Source: a virus
IMG/VR virus record: IMGVR_UViG_3300045999_006266
Location: 1 to 30,021 of that record
Direction: 5' to 3' (one strand)
Length of the DNA stretch: 30,021 nucleotides
The notes beneath the pieces were generated by a model. That model did not search any database. It worked only from the letters and a program-made list of their open reading frames with translations, and had not been told where the DNA came from. This document shows, piece after piece, positions 6,294 through 30,021 of the stretch. A program made the translations under genes and the position numbers. The first letter of the stretch is position 1. Each line of letters begins with the position of its first letter.

Positions 6294-7063
6294 TGTCGTC
6301 CTCCGACACGGAATACGCGCCGCGGTTCTCCATTCCGGAGTTCATCGAGCGCGGACGCGACAACAAGATCACCGCTCCGGTCTACCGGAACGGTGCGCTT
6401 GTCGCCCCCGTGTCGGGCACGGTGTCGGTCTACAAGGCCGACCAGACCGCGGTGGTTAACGCCGCCGTGGTTACCATCACGGCCAGCGTCGCGACCTTCA
6501 CCGTCACGGCGGTGTCCATCGGGTCGCTCGTCCTCGAGGACGGGTGGCTTGTGGAGTGGACGCTGACGATGCCCGATGGCGTCGCGCACGTTTTCCGGCG
6601 GGATGGCGCGCTCGTCCGTCGTCGCCTGTACCCTGTCATCTCGGATATCGACCTGCTCCGGCGCCACCGCGACCTCGGGCAGCTTCGCGAGGCGGGGGTC
6701 ACCTCGTACCAGGACTATCTGGATGAGGCGTTCTGCATGATTGAGAACCGCCTGATCGGCGGCGGCAAGCGACCCTACATGGTCATGTCCCCCGCGGCGT
6801 TCCGCGAGGCGCATGTGTGCCTCTCGCTGCACCTCATCTGGAACGACTACGCCACCTCGGCTGGCGACACCTCGCGGTATCAGCAGCTCGCCGACTCTTA
6901 CGGGCAGGCCTACGAGAACGCGTGGGGCCAGCTGACGTTTCACTACGACGAGACCGACGAGAACGTGGTTAACGTCGACCGCCGGAACTCGGGGAGCCCG
7001 ACGCTCTGGCTCAACTCCACGGGCGGTCAGTACCCGCTCGGGTACCGAGGCATCCGGTCGTGA
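6293..7063 (+). CDS. Putative head-tail connector/adaptor protein
   Basis: This 256-residue protein has two parts. Residues about 1-110 form a beta-rich Ig-like region with many Val and Thr. Residues about 115-225 are helical and start with ISDIDLLRRHRDLGQL, with AFREAHVCLSLHLIWNDY in the middle. The helical part resembles adaptor proteins (HK97 gp6/SPP1 gp15 class) that sit under the portal, which would suit its place before the tail terminator-like gene. The beta-rich N-terminal part is unusual for a small adaptor. The start overlaps the previous stop (TAATG) and the end overlaps the next start (GTGA). The family call is tentative. Confidence 0.65.
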   Translation: MSSSDTEYAPRFSIPEFIERGRDNKITAPVYRNGALVAPVSGTVSVYKADQTAVVNAAVVTITASVATFTVTAVSIGSLVLEDGWLVEWTLTMPDGVAHVFRRDGALVRRRLYPVISDIDLLRRHRDLGQLREAGVTSYQDYLDEAFCMIENRLIGGGKRPYMVMSPAAFREAHVCLSLHLIWNDYATSAGDTSRYQQLADSYGQAYENAWGQLTFHYDETDENVVNVDRRNSGSPTLWLNSTGGQYPLGYRGIRS

Positions 7064-19745: not shown

Positions 19746-20264
19746 ATGGACCCCATCCCCGTACCATCAACCTCGGAAGAGGTTATCGCGCAGGTCTCCG
19801 ACGACGCAGCGCTCCTCACTGTCGCGGCTCCTGTGGTGGCGCATGAGGTCCAAGCCGCGGCCACGCCCACGGCGAGCGAGCTGGGCAAGCTTGCCGAGAG
19901 CGCAGGCGACAACCCGCTCCTCGCGCTGGGGCTCGCTGCTATCGCCGTGCTGGGTGGCGGATCGGCGTGGAAGCTCTGGACGAAGCGCAGCGAGCAGGCG
20001 CACGAGCTCGCGATGAAGCGCCTCGAACTGGACGCGGCGACGGCGAACGGGACCGCGCAGCCCCCGCCCTGTCAGGCGAAGCAGGCCGAGGTGGACGCCA
20101 AGCTCGCAGCCTTCGAGGCGCGGCTGGGAAAGGTCGAGAAGACCTCGCTCGCCTTGCCCGACGGCTTCGACGCCGACGAGCTGACTGGTCGTCTCAGCAA
20201 GGTGGAGGGCGCGATCAAGCGCTTGGGCGTCAAGCCGCCCGCAACGAAGGGAGGTACCAAGTGA
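19746..20264 (+). CDS. Second small membrane protein of the lysis cassette
   Basis: A 172-residue protein has a single membrane segment at about residues 56-77 (NPLLALGLAAIAVLGGGSAWKLW). A charged coiled coil follows (about 80-155), then a Lys-rich tail. The ATG at 19746 has a perfect ribosome binding site, AGGAGGA at 19734-19740, five bases away. The same frame is open back to another ATG at 19554, inside the end of the preceding gene, giving a 236-residue form with a Pro-rich linker; that start lacks a good binding site. Together with the preceding membrane protein it probably forms a holin/antiholin pair or helper for the M15 endolysin. Its stop overlaps the endolysin GTG. Confidence 0.65.
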   Translation: MDPIPVPSTSEEVIAQVSDDAALLTVAAPVVAHEVQAAATPTASELGKLAESAGDNPLLALGLAAIAVLGGGSAWKLWTKRSEQAHELAMKRLELDAATANGTAQPPPCQAKQAEVDAKLAAFEARLGKVEKTSLALPDGFDADELTGRLSKVEGAIKRLGVKPPATKGGTK

Positions 20265-20710
20265 CTCTGACTGCACATTTCAGCTTCGAGGAGCTCACGC
20301 GCACGGGGCAGGCCTCCCTTCAGGAGGCCAACCGACAGGAGGCCCTGCCCTACGTGGACCGTCTCAAGGCCGTCGCCGAGATGCTAGAGGTCATCCGCTC
20401 GCGGTTCGGGCCTGTCCGCGTGTCGAGCGGGTTCAGGGGGCCTGCCGTCAACGCCGCCGTGGGAGGCAGTTCCTCGTCGCAACATTCTAAGGGCGAGGCC
20501 GCAGACATCACGTGCGCCAGCTGCGACGTTGAAACGTTGCACAAGTGGATCGTGACCGAGAGCGGGCTTCGCTTCGGGCAGTGCATCTTGGAGAAGCCGC
20601 CGGGCAAGGCGTGGGTGCACATCTCCCTGGGCGCTCCGTGGCGTCCCGCTGCGAAGTGCGGCGAGTCGCTCTTCTTCGACGGCAAGACCTACAAACCGAT
20701 GAAATACTGA
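20261..20710 (+). CDS. M15-family peptidase endolysin
   Basis: A 149-residue enzyme of the peptidase M15 (D-Ala-D-Ala carboxypeptidase/VanY/L-Ala-D-Glu peptidase-like) family, which cuts peptide crosslinks of peptidoglycan. Zinc ligands are visible in order: H75 and D82 in QHSKGEAAD (the family's H-x6-D), and H120 in WVHISL. SSGFRGPAVNAAVGG at residues 55-69 supplies the usual Ser/Arg substrate region. There is no signal peptide, so release needs a holin, supplied by the two membrane proteins upstream. The GTG start at 20261 forms a GTGA overlap with the preceding stop and has GGGAGG at 20249-20254. The open frame extends further upstream but only as a shadow. Confidence 0.9.
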   Translation: MTLTAHFSFEELTRTGQASLQEANRQEALPYVDRLKAVAEMLEVIRSRFGPVRVSSGFRGPAVNAAVGGSSSSQHSKGEAADITCASCDVETLHKWIVTESGLRFGQCILEKPPGKAWVHISLGAPWRPAAKCGESLFFDGKTYKPMKY

Positions 20711-20721
20711 CGTTTGACGTG

Positions 20722-20762
20722 GGTATACTTAGGTATACCTACGTCATACTCAGGTATACTCA
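20722..20762 (+). repeat. Array of GTATAC-type decamer repeats
   Basis: Four near-identical 10-base units follow the endolysin stop: GGTATACTTA (20722-20731), GGTATACCTA (20732-20741), GTCATACTCA (20743-20752) and GGTATACTCA (20753-20762). One extra base separates units two and three. The centre contains the perfect palindrome AGGTATACCT (20731-20740). The spacing is close to one DNA turn, as for cooperative protein binding, and the TATACT hexamers also resemble -10 boxes. Confidence 0.7.
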
Positions 20763-20854
20763 TGTCGGGGGAACCCTACCCCAGAAAGGCGGCGCGCTTC
20801 CTCGGCATGGTGTCGAGGCGGCGCGTCGTCTCGCTATGGGGTACGTGTCCCTAA
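20762..20854 (+). CDS. Possible 30-residue leader peptide
   Basis: An ATG directly at the end of the GTATAC array opens a 30-residue basic frame (MSGEPYPRKAARFLG..., ending at TAA 20852-20854). It has no clear ribosome binding site, and a stem with an internal loop lies inside it (20793-20797 with 20821-20825; 20800-20804 with 20814-20818). It may be a leader or chance. The next gene's AAGGAGG site begins immediately after it. Confidence 0.25.
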   Translation: MSGEPYPRKAARFLGMVSRRRVVSLWGTCP

Positions 20855-20863
20855 GGAGGTTCC

Positions 20864-21049
20864 ATGCCCTACGATCCCGCTGAGCTAGTCGAGCTGCCCG
20901 CGGAAGTCCTCGCCGTCATCGCCGAGATCCGCTCTGCTACCCGTGCAGGTGGCGACGGAGGCACCAAGGTCACGCGCGCAGAACGGAAGCGCATCGTCCG
21001 CGCCGCTCTCCACCTCGCGTACGTCCTCGGGCGGGATGGGCTCGACTAA
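20864..21049 (+). CDS. Small hypothetical protein
   Basis: A 61-residue protein with a mostly helical, acidic N-terminal half (DPAELVELPAEVLAVIAEIRS) and a basic C-terminal half (TRAERKRIVRAALHLAYVLG). A strong AAGGAGG at 20853-20859 precedes ATG 20864, and the stop overlaps the next ATG (TAATG). No family is recognised. It follows the lysis cassette and may belong to the same late transcript or to one starting at the repeat array. Confidence 0.65.
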   Translation: MPYDPAELVELPAEVLAVIAEIRSATRAGGDGGTKVTRAERKRIVRAALHLAYVLGRDGLD

Positions 21050-21399
21050 TGGCCGTCACCCTTGCGCCGACTCACCTTCCGCACGTGCAGGTCGTAACGA
21101 CGGGCACGTCCAACATCGTCACGCAGGTCAACCTGCCGACCACGCGGCATTTGCAGTTGAACCTGCACAACCGCGACAACGCCTCGAAACACGCGATGGT
21201 CTCCTTCGACCAGACCTTGACTGACGGTGGCGCAGCCCCGGCGACCGGGGGCTGGACCATCGATCAGTATCTGGCGTACAACACGAACGGCAACGGCGCG
21301 AACGGAATGCCGAGCGTCACGAAGTTCTTCCTGTTTAGCACTTCGCACAACTCCGTGGTCATCGAGGTCTTGCTATCGACCGCGAAGCCCGCTAACTAG
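21049..21399 (+). CDS. Small beta-rich protein, possibly structural
   Basis: A 116-residue protein rich in Thr, Asn and Val with beta patterns (VQVVTTGTSNIVTQVNL; SVVIEVLLSTAKPAN), resembling small virion proteins. It is coupled to the preceding gene by TAATG. Its stop TAG (21397-21399) lies inside a CTAG that is also the stop of the converging gene on the other strand (21396-21398), so the two transcripts collide with no space between them. Function unknown. Confidence 0.65.
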   Translation: MAVTLAPTHLPHVQVVTTGTSNIVTQVNLPTTRHLQLNLHNRDNASKHAMVSFDQTLTDGGAAPATGGWTIDQYLAYNTNGNGANGMPSVTKFFLFSTSHNSVVIEVLLSTAKPAN

Positions 21400-23369: not shown

Positions 23370-23591
23370 ATGCAGTACCACACCCTAGGCACCTTGATCC
23401 GCCTCCACCGGGAGAACCTTGAGATGTCGCGCGCGGAGCTGGCCCGACAGATCGGCGTGCACCCTTCGCAGCTCACGCGCTGGGAAGCCGGCGACCACAA
23501 GCCGTCCCTGTCGGCGATGCTTGCCCTGGGGAAGGCCCTCGACGTCGACCCGGTTGAGCTTATGAGCGCCGCCGCCGTGGACGCGCGATGA
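23370..23591 (+). CDS. Xre/Cro-CI-type helix-turn-helix repressor
   Basis: A 73-residue protein made up almost only of an HTH_3 domain (residues about 6-62): LIRLHRENLEMSRAELARQIG is followed by the recognition helix HPSQLTRWEAG and a closing PSLSAMLALGKALDVDP. It lacks a C-terminal dimerisation/peptidase domain, so it resembles a Cro or small C-type regulator rather than a full CI. There is no Shine-Dalgarno site; the predicted transcript start falls at the ATG, so translation may be leaderless, as for CI from lambda PRM. The palindrome directly upstream is the probable operator. The stop overlaps the RusA start (ATGA). Confidence 0.85.
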   Translation: MQYHTLGTLIRLHRENLEMSRAELARQIGVHPSQLTRWEAGDHKPSLSAMLALGKALDVDPVELMSAAAVDAR

Positions 23592-25713: not shown

Positions 25714-26126
25714 CCGAAGAACAGATCGAGCTCGGGCGCCGCGCCGTCGCGTGCAAGGGCTGGCGATGGATGCCGGGGATGCTCGCTCGCGACGCGAGGT
25801 GGATCCTTCACCGCATACAAGATGACGGTTCTGCGCTAGACCTCAGCGATGACATCCTAGAGCGCGGATGGGGGTACTCTACTAAGACGCTCCGACCGAT
25901 CTTCGATGACCCCGCCACCCTGGGATGTTTGCTCGCGCTGGTGCGGGAGGCATGGAATGACAAGGCCATGACCTGTGCGCGAGTTGATGTGCTCGACACC
26001 TACATCGCACCGCTTCCCGGTGGCTACCCATATGGTGTCGTCGGAATGGACCGCAGGCGTATCTTCAAACGGTACTTCGGTTCCGAAGCTGAGGCCCTCG
26101 TCGCAGCGCTGGAGGCTGCGCCATGA
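25710..26126 (+). CDS. Conserved hypothetical phage protein
   Basis: A 138-residue protein starting in an ATGA overlap. It contains LGRRAVACKGWRWMPGML, ILERGWGYSTKTLRPIFDDP and LGCLLALVREAW. Proteins of this kind, opening with a 'Gly-Arg-Arg-Ala-Val-Ala-Cys' helix and WRWMPGM, occur in other phages as small hypotheticals near the replication module. Stop and next start overlap (ATGA). Function unknown. Confidence 0.7.
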   Translation: MTEEQIELGRRAVACKGWRWMPGMLARDARWILHRIQDDGSALDLSDDILERGWGYSTKTLRPIFDDPATLGCLLALVREAWNDKAMTCARVDVLDTYIAPLPGGYPYGVVGMDRRRIFKRYFGSEAEALVAALEAAP

Positions 26127-26659
26127 CCCGCACAAACACCCCGTGGCGTTCGTCAGAGTTTGAGCGTGCCCGCCAGCTACGCGAGGAGGGCCTCTCCTGG
26201 CGAGAGGTGGGGGAGCGCCTCGGGCGGTCCGAGTCGGCGATGCATTCGATGGTCGCCGTCCTCAAGGACGCCGATTGGTCCGCGCGTGACCTAGTTGAGG
26301 TCGCGCCCCCGCCGGCAGTTCCGCCCAAGTACACCTACCGGCACTGGCGTCCGAGCGAGCTGGCGAAGGCGCGAGACATGCGCGCGAACGGCGCGACATG
26401 GCCCGAGATCGGGGCAGCCCTCGGGCGGCAACCCGACGCCGTCGCACAATACGTCGGCACGGCGAACAAGGAGGCCGCTATGGTCGAGGTGACCGGGCGG
26501 AAGAACGCTCGCTACGCCGCCCTCTCCGAGCATGAGCGGAAGCTCGTGGATGCGAAGCTGAACGAGGGCCTCGGTGTCCGCGCGGTGGGCGAGCACGTGG
26601 GCAGGCATTGGTACGTCATCAGCGTCTACAAGCGGACGAGGGGCATGCATGCCAGGTAG
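26123..26659 (+). CDS. DNA-binding protein with three Myb/HTH-like repeats
   Basis: A 178-residue protein with three related helical units: residues about 8-45 (FERARQLREEGLSWREVGERLGR), about 72-112 (ELAKARDMRANGATWPEIGAALGR) and about 130-170 (ERKLVDAKLNEGLGVRAVGEHVGR). Each has the pattern helix, Gly, Trp/Val-x-Glu-Ile/Val-Gly-x-x-Leu-Gly-Arg, helix, typical of helix-turn-helix or Myb/SANT-like DNA-binding units. A Pro-rich linker joins the first two. It probably binds phage DNA, as a transcription or replication regulator. It overlaps the next gene by 11 bases and forms a tandem pair with it. Confidence 0.72.
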   Translation: MTRTNTPWRSSEFERARQLREEGLSWREVGERLGRSESAMHSMVAVLKDADWSARDLVEVAPPPAVPPKYTYRHWRPSELAKARDMRANGATWPEIGAALGRQPDAVAQYVGTANKEAAMVEVTGRKNARYAALSEHERKLVDAKLNEGLGVRAVGEHVGRHWYVISVYKRTRGMHAR

Positions 26660-27220: not shown

Positions 27221-27299
27221 CTCGCCGGACGCGGGCTGATCCCCCGTAGGGGGGAGGGGCTGAAGCCCTTCCCCCCGTCTCCCCGGCAAGGTCGGCGAG
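27221..27299 (+). promoter_or_regulatory. Structured leader before the primase gene
   Basis: A 13-nt to 13-nt stem (27249-27261 with 27264-27276, one wobble) is nested inside the 7-bp outer stem CTCGCCG (27221-27227) with CGGCGAG (27293-27299). The outer stem ends three bases before the primase ATG at 27303 and pairs with the only purine-rich sequence near it, so it may hide the start. CCCCC (27241-27245) could instead pair with GGGGG (27249-27253), giving an alternative fold. Confidence 0.6.
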
Positions 27300-29486: not shown

Positions 29487-29612
29487 ACCCGCCTAGAACC
29501 TACAATAATAGACCTTGTCACAGCCTCTTCAACCTTTAGTCAGTAAAACTTCTTAAGGGCTTTCGGATTCGTAGTTCATCAGATCACCCTGAAGAGGGTG
29601 TGACGGTGTGAC
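29439..29612 (+). repeat. GGTGTGAC octamer repeats around the VapE gene end
   Basis: Direct copies lie at 29460-29467, 29472-29479, 29597-29604 and 29605-29612, the last two touching. An inverted copy at 29439-29446 (GTCACACC) forms a 9-bp stem with the first (29439-29447 with 29459-29467). The stretch between the two groups (about 29490-29580) is the most AT-rich part of the window and has a CACCCT/AGGGTG stem at 29585-29600. Origin iterons or operator sites are likely. Confidence 0.7.
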
Positions 29613-29632
29613 GGGTGAAGCATGGAGGATCG

Positions 29633-29860
29633 ATGGAACGTCAACGGCACTACATCCACGGCGACCCCTGCGAGGCGCTCGACGGGACGCACTACTGCGC
29701 GTTCCGGGATCTCTTCGTGCGCTTGGAGGAGCTGGACCTCGGGCCGAAGGGTCACGCGAGGTACAAGCGCATGCGGGAAGCGGCGGCGAGGAAGAGCACT
29801 GCGCGCTTCCGGGTGATGCTCAACGCACTGGGGAATCCCTTCGGCCTCGGGGCATGGTGA
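29633..29860 (+). CDS. Small hypothetical protein
   Basis: A 75-residue basic protein with a Cys/His-rich N-terminal part (YIHGDPCEALDGTHYCAFRDLF) and a helical, Lys/Arg-rich middle (KGHARYKRMREAAARKSTARF). ATG 29633 has GGAGG upstream at 29624-29628; a GTG at 29615 gives six more residues but has no better site. C and H spacing hints at a small zinc-binding protein. It follows the VapE gene after the AT-rich gap. Function unknown. Confidence 0.65.
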   Translation: MERQRHYIHGDPCEALDGTHYCAFRDLFVRLEELDLGPKGHARYKRMREAAARKSTARFRVMLNALGNPFGLGAW

Positions 29861-29861
29861 C

Positions 29862-30021
29862 GTGCCGCGCGCTAGACTCCACCTAGAGCGTGCGGTCCTC
29901 GGCGTGGTGCCTGGGACCGCGTCCTCCGATGCGCTCGGACGAAAGCGCAGGCCTGTCCAAGCCAGCCTTGCCTCTTGGGGCAGGGTCGTGTGTCTGGGGG
30001 TTCACCTACCCCGACTCTTCT
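29862..30021 (+). CDS. Possible N-terminal part of a gene cut by the window edge (partial)
   Basis: From GTG 29862, one base after the preceding stop, a frame of 53 codons stays open to the window end (starts MPRARLHLERAVLGVVPG). It has no clear ribosome binding site and its third codon positions look less GC-rich than in firm genes. Several short inverted repeats also lie here (29892-29898 with 29914-29920; 29930-29934 with 29945-29949), so a non-coding structured stretch is an equal alternative. Confidence 0.35.
   Translation, partial: MPRARLHLERAVLGVVPGTASSDALGRKRRPVQASLASWGRVVCLGVHLPRLF

Follow-up and report, generated by a model that had tools for sequence, protein, structure and literature searches.

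What does an array of GTATAC repeats do in the gap behind the endolysin gene of a phage, and what else does that gap hold? The phage is represented by the virus record IMGVR_UViG_3300045999_006266, which at its full length of 30,021 nucleotides (nt) is the window analysed here, with coordinates counted from its first letter. The array sits between the endolysin gene and a gene of 61 amino acids (aa), in a stretch that the original prediction took to be a clear gap. The gap is in fact occupied by a conserved 80-nt element, referred to here as E1, which lies directly downstream of the array and is nearly invariant in relatives whose flanking DNA has strongly diverged. E1 is under strong constraint at the nucleotide level and is able to form a long hairpin, capped by AUGGU, on the late (+) strand. 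It is probably a functional RNA of that strand. Unusual as it is, the array is confined to one lineage and matters less than E1.

Conservation and distribution of E1

Relatives were collected through the endolysin (18 relatives) and, in the case of L022, through the E1 pattern. Together with the window and L086, a contig of a metagenome-assembled genome (MAG), they provide 15 E1-bearing sequences. Over the 105 pairs that these sequences form, mean identity is 91% in E1 versus 59% at the four-fold sites of the endolysin gene and 55% at those of the 61-aa gene, the start of the latter being taken five codons early in the row of L015. The identity of E1 exceeds the four-fold-site identity of each neighbour gene in every one of the 105 pairs. 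E1 also stands out as a sharp local peak of identity, and among the best 25 sub-windows listed all those with at least 11 relatives lie on E1.

A covariance model of E1 was built from 14 sequences, and it matches 14 of 20 related phage records at E < 1e-16, these being the same 14 from which the model was made. In the genome_contigs collection the E1 pattern is found in 31 contigs, one of which (L086) is supported by the model. L086, 3,472 bases long, belongs to a Chloroflexi MAG and carries the same endolysin together with E1; it gives a weak hint at a Chloroflexi host, as a short binned contig is weak host evidence. A search of the phages collection gave no match to E1, and a stretch of a Hymenobacter plasmid in the plasmids collection (E 0.01, 19.5 bits with the E1 model) was treated as a chance match. 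A tRNA or a known RNA family was also considered, and none was found. Rfam gives no match for the window at the gathering cut-off and, with E values up to 1 allowed, none in 20500-21200 or 29600-30021, and for the element of L013 it gives only a sub-threshold match to mir-8303 (E 0.058). Searches of the open-licence literature found no paper on E1.

Fold and strand of E1

As RNA of the + strand, E1 folds into one long hairpin within an outer helix, P1 (Table 1). P1 is mutually exclusive with a 5' stem, in which the G run that begins at 20767 pairs with CCCC at 20779-20782. The folding z scores of the + and - strands are -6.3 and -3.4 in the window, -6.1 and -2.3 in L005, and -4.5 and -3.6 in L013. 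Among 11 distinct rows of the alignment, 205 of 209 stem cells pair when E1 is read as + strand RNA versus 165 of 209 when it is read as - strand RNA; the + strand pairs better because several of the E1 pairs are G.U. A single compensated change, from G-C to C-G, occurs in the 5' stem of L014, where it breaks one pair of the outer helix.

Some relatives have an extra structured stretch behind E1 that contains a second hairpin of the AUGGU/AUAGU type, namely L013 and L016 (about 6540-6630) and L004 and L005 (about 6540-6640).

The GTATAC array and its dyad

The original prediction described the array as four 10-base units. Three of these are exact copies of GTATAC, starting at 20723, 20733 and 20754, and none of 1000 first-order simulations placed three copies inside 40 base pairs (bp); the remaining unit, third in order, is just CATAC (20745-20749), so the array consists of three good copies with a unit register of about 10/11/10. 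Exact matches to GGTATACNNA start at 20722, 20732 and 20753 on the + strand and at 20730 on the - strand, while AGGTATACCT spans 20731-20740. A search for the motif elsewhere, as had been proposed, shows that the window contains no GTATAC beyond the three copies and that among the relatives the array recurs in L006 and L007 only. A scan of the viral collection with the first three units returned two other contigs only. An operator with multiple sites is rejected, as the window lacks any further GTATAC and the copies of GGTATACC in four relatives are solitary, without the array.

Units 1 and 2 of the array are the two arms of a longer inverted repeat (dyad) with a 4-nt loop, TTAG, which had previously been overlooked. 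The dyad is the strongest such hairpin in the window, and a stem of 14 bp was reached in 0 of 60 simulations. Its sequence is identical in L006 and L007, and the viral collection, when scanned for the dyad, yielded no contigs beyond these two. L007 is 100% identical to the window from the end of the endolysin gene into the next gene, and L006 is 95-99% identical to it around the array, in each case except for an 18-base stretch at 89%. That the dyad is unchanged in L006 and L007 says little about selection because the surrounding DNA is equally similar. The runner-up among the short hairpins of the window lies at 27249-27276 (GGGGGGAGGGGCTGAAGCCCTTCCCCCC).

With regard to transcription, the array had been proposed to be a cluster of -10 boxes. 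The last unit does contain a -10-like hexamer, TATACT, which ends 6 nt ahead of the G run of E1. In L006 this unit changes from GGTATAC to GGTATAT and the ATG that follows it changes to ACG; the palindrome is lost, and the -10 character is kept as TATATT in place of TATACT. L005, which is without the array, has TAGACT at this place, and TAGACT also precedes E2 in 4 of 5 E2 sequences. But no -35 was found, and the hexamer is missing in most E1 carriers, so the proposal is supported in part, for the last unit. We regard the array tentatively as a promoter/operator. It would be an optional module of three phages, made up of the dyad and a TATAYT hexamer directly upstream of E1. The last GTATAC unit would serve as the -10, and transcription would start where E1 has its 5' end, at about 20767. 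A regulator could sit on the dyad, whose centre would then lie near -36.

Phage promoters with an activator dyad near -35 are exemplified by the Mor and C sites of Mu. The present arrangement is similar to these in that a dyad precedes a -10 hexamer and there is no -35. Unlike them, it is a single site in the window and occurs in only a few members of the group, and no cognate activator was identified. A link between the array and a repressor gene is rejected, since the Cro-like gene at 23370 is similar in array-less relatives too: it is equally close there, with 93-96% identity in four relatives without the array (in one of which the match covers 41% of the gene) and 92-96% in the two other array bearers. 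The window encodes two helix-turn-helix proteins, at 23370-23591 and at 26123-26659. For cooperative binding by a dimeric regulator, which had also been proposed for the array, the dyad would be a candidate site, but it occurs in only 3 of the 15 E1-bearing sequences and the window offers no second one.

Alternatively, there may be no promoter, and the sole role of the dyad may be that of an RNA hairpin just after the endolysin stop codon, as a 3'-end stabiliser, an RNase III site or a factor-dependent terminator. The 14-bp stem begins 5 nt past the stop codon and as RNA has a folding energy of -21.8 kcal/mol with a fold z of -6.8, all of which agrees with such a role. It is not a standard intrinsic terminator because no T run follows it, and 0 intrinsic terminators were found in 20600-20900. 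Arms built of self-palindromic GTATAC would, however, be unusual in a plain hairpin, and the dyad is absent from most relatives; we consider a role as a hairpin alone somewhat unlikely.

A second structured region next to cos

A second structured region, E2, lies at the right end of the genome and is available in five sequences (the window, L060, L059, L063 and L065). In G002 and L065 it is followed by the small terminase gene, which was named from its place ahead of the large subunit. Two contigs, G001 and G008, stop shortly after E2, and an end at the start of the terminase side is present in G001, G005, G008, G011 and G019. The two sides share a 9-nt overlap in G001 and G008 (CTCCTTCGC and CTCGTTAGC), which is what filled cohesive ends would give. 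From the contig sequences it appears that these phages have 9-nt cohesive ends to the right of E2 and to the left of the small terminase gene. The record of G008 has an Illumina adapter at its cos-side end. Upstream of E2, repeats that resemble iterons and are like GGGTGGACA are present in L060 (1-190), in L065 (2400-2700) and in L063.

In the window, L065 and G008, the E2 hairpin has a lower stem that is paired at 7 of 7 positions, despite the different sequence of G008. The cap motif of E1, GRC-AUGGU-GYC, recurs in similar form in E2, as GGC-GUGGU-GCC. A regular expression for the cap, combined with at least 9 stem pairs, finds 16 places in 13 of 14 records, and all 16 are on the + strand and fall in E1, in E2 or in the second hairpin behind E1 in G013. 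The expression did not detect E1 in G001, where the cap differs, or E2 in G001 and G002, where there is a bulge. Kinship between the two elements is a lead and not a result. That the two share an RNA signal is conceivable, at odds slightly short of even, and a cap common to E1 and the cos-side E2 would offer a direct test of RNA-based control of the late operon.

Interpretation of E1 and the upstream module

The overall explanation that we favour has two parts, a cis-acting late RNA (E1) and an optional promoter/operator upstream of it, and we assign it a probability of roughly 0.45. For E1, a cis-acting late RNA is the most economical reading because of the + strand bias, the place behind the endolysin and the cap, and we infer that it functions in this way on the late transcript. 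E1 would be transcribed as part of the late operon and would act in cis as a structured RNA signal, with its cap bound either by RNA polymerase or by a protein of the phage. Through this the late transcript could be controlled in its elongation, its processing or its expression, for example in the translation of the 61-aa gene. E2 has a similar cap and may play the same part where the structural operon starts, in front of the small terminase gene. If this is true, E1 is an undescribed structured RNA element that is more constrained than the silent sites of the adjacent genes.

Several results weigh against this explanation. The array is missing from 12 of the 15 E1-bearing sequences, being present in the window, L006 and L007, and is therefore not essential to E1; its identity in L006 and L007 is not above that of the adjoining DNA. 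A search for a promoter of the sigma-70 type (-35 and -10 at a spacing of 16-18 nt) found 0, the -10-like TATACT being the only part present. Covariation is not above that of shuffled alignments either in the E1 hairpin, where 72 to 311 of 500 shuffles score as high, or in the 5' stem, where 55 of 500 do, because the stems of E1 scarcely vary. The E1 model is without a match in six more distant endolysin relatives among the 20 records. The cap, which is the sole link between E1 and E2, was picked as a motif after both elements had been seen. With the E2 model, E1 reaches an E of about 1.6 and is outscored by unrelated places, and with the E1 model, E2 reaches an E of 0.08-0.5.

E1 could be a site in DNA rather than an RNA, for instance an attachment site, a replication origin or a terminase-related dyad. 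It is a near-dyad with both arms almost invariant, and E2, its possible relative, adjoins cos. On the other hand, the strand asymmetry created by the G.U pairs favours RNA, and E1 is about 9 kilobases (kb) away from cos. Genes with a tyrosine integrase (PF00589) or a resolvase (PF00239) domain were each found in 0 of 11 records, several of which are fragments, and this speaks against an attachment site. A DNA site is an unlikely identity for E1.

It is improbable that E1 is a boundary sequence with no function of its own, kept alike by homologous exchange among mosaic phages. Identity does step at E1 between the endolysin gene and the 61-aa gene in several relatives, and an Erf-like annealing gene is present in these phages. 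But E1 is 89-98% identical to the window in L009, L011, L013, L016 and L022 while both of its flanks are diverged there, and the step at E1 ranks 12th among 26 gene boundaries. Because of this rank the junction is not special, and E1 as a particular recombination junction is rejected.

The suggestion of a nearly leaderless 30-residue frame, open in the window from ATG at 20762 to TAA at 20854, is not supported, and a small protein encoded here is very unlikely: the frame is not a conserved gene because its start is lost in L006 (ACG replaces ATG) and its stop in L007, and relatives without the array have no start for it. In its favour, when read by eye, the frame runs into the next gene in L004, L006, L007 and L008. 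Neither a conserved start and stop nor codon-like substitutions are seen across the relatives, with changes in E1 falling at first and second codon positions (TTC/TAC/TCC, GCG/ACG) and conservation exceeding that of four-fold sites.

Comparison with known phage RNA signals

As a cis-acting RNA, E1 invites comparison with two kinds of phage antitermination signal. In the lambdoid nut sites, boxB loops are GNRA-like and are accompanied by boxA. E1 and E2 are similar to nut/boxB in having a short conserved pentaloop as a hairpin cap and in occupying two operon sites. They are unlike it in that E1 has the loop AUGGU and that neither boxA nor an N-like protein was identified.

Phage HK022 has two put RNAs, putL and putR, which are about 70 nt long, form two stem-loops each and lie on the coding strand of long operons (PMC9378689). 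The put RNAs need no dedicated protein factor to act on RNA polymerase (PMC9378689). Their antitermination proceeds via the zinc-binding domain of the beta' subunit. The likeness is that each phage genome has two similar structured RNA elements. E1 has 80 nt with one long hairpin and an alternative 5' stem or outer helix. E1 is in the late region behind the endolysin with E2 beside cos before the small terminase gene, unlike the put sites of HK022. We do not file E1 as a put RNA because its position differs and a put-like function would be only a possibility; the resemblance is one of kind.

A more far-reaching version, which we think quite unlikely, is that one new phage RNA signal, read through the AUGGU cap, is present in two copies, E1 and E2, at the two ends of the late operon. 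The signal would modify RNA polymerase or recruit a single phage protein, in a put-like or nut-like manner in an uncultured host. The GTATAC dyad would then serve as a local promoter of recent origin, from which three of the phages could make E1 independently.

Neighbouring genes and the phage group

The features of the locus and of the right genome end are collected in Table 1. The predicted structure of the 61-aa protein has three helices, with a predicted local distance difference test (pLDDT) score of 70, and that of the 116-aa protein has a mean pLDDT of 37 and is unusable.

Table 1. Coordinates of the elements, motifs and genes discussed in the text
Feature	Position	Strand	Basis
E1, 80-nt conserved and strongly folded element in the gap between the endolysin and 61-aa genes	20766..20845	+	conservation, covariance model, folding
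E1 main hairpin, 12 + 7 pairs, pentaloop AUGGU (20807-20811), cap GGC-AUGGU-GUC	20787..20831	+	folding
E1 outer helix P1, UACCCCA (20777-20783) with UGGGGUA (20837-20843)	20777..20843	+	folding
GTATAC array, three exact GTATAC and one degenerate CATAC	20722..20762	+	motif positions, simulation
14-bp inverted repeat TGACGTGGGTATAC-TTAG-GTATACCTACGTCA, one G.U, containing array units 1 and 2	20715..20746		simulation, folding
TATACT, -10-like hexamer in the last array unit (TATATT in L006)	20755..20760	+	putative; no -35 found
E2, the other structured region, at the right end of the genome next to cos	29884..30015	+	folding, relatives
E2 hairpin with cap GGC-GUGGU-GCC	29892-29920	+	
E2 final stem-loop GUC..GGGG..CCCC-GAC	29992-30015	+	
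TAGACT, -10-like hexamer before E2	29873..29878	+	in 4 of 5 E2 sequences
Endolysin, peptidase M15 family	20261..20710	+	PHROG 894, PF08291
61-aa gene downstream of E1, predicted helical	20864..21049	+	prediction
116-aa gene, last before the convergent minus-strand genes	21049..21399	+	

Among 50,697 phage records there is no near match to a 12-kb stretch of the window, and the large terminase has no match at 60% identity or above in the phage collection. The phages of this group appear to be mosaic and cos-ended and without a close relative in the phage collection searched. Mosaicism is strong in comparison with 13 relatives, as the identities of neighbouring genes to the same relative differ by up to 25 points on average.
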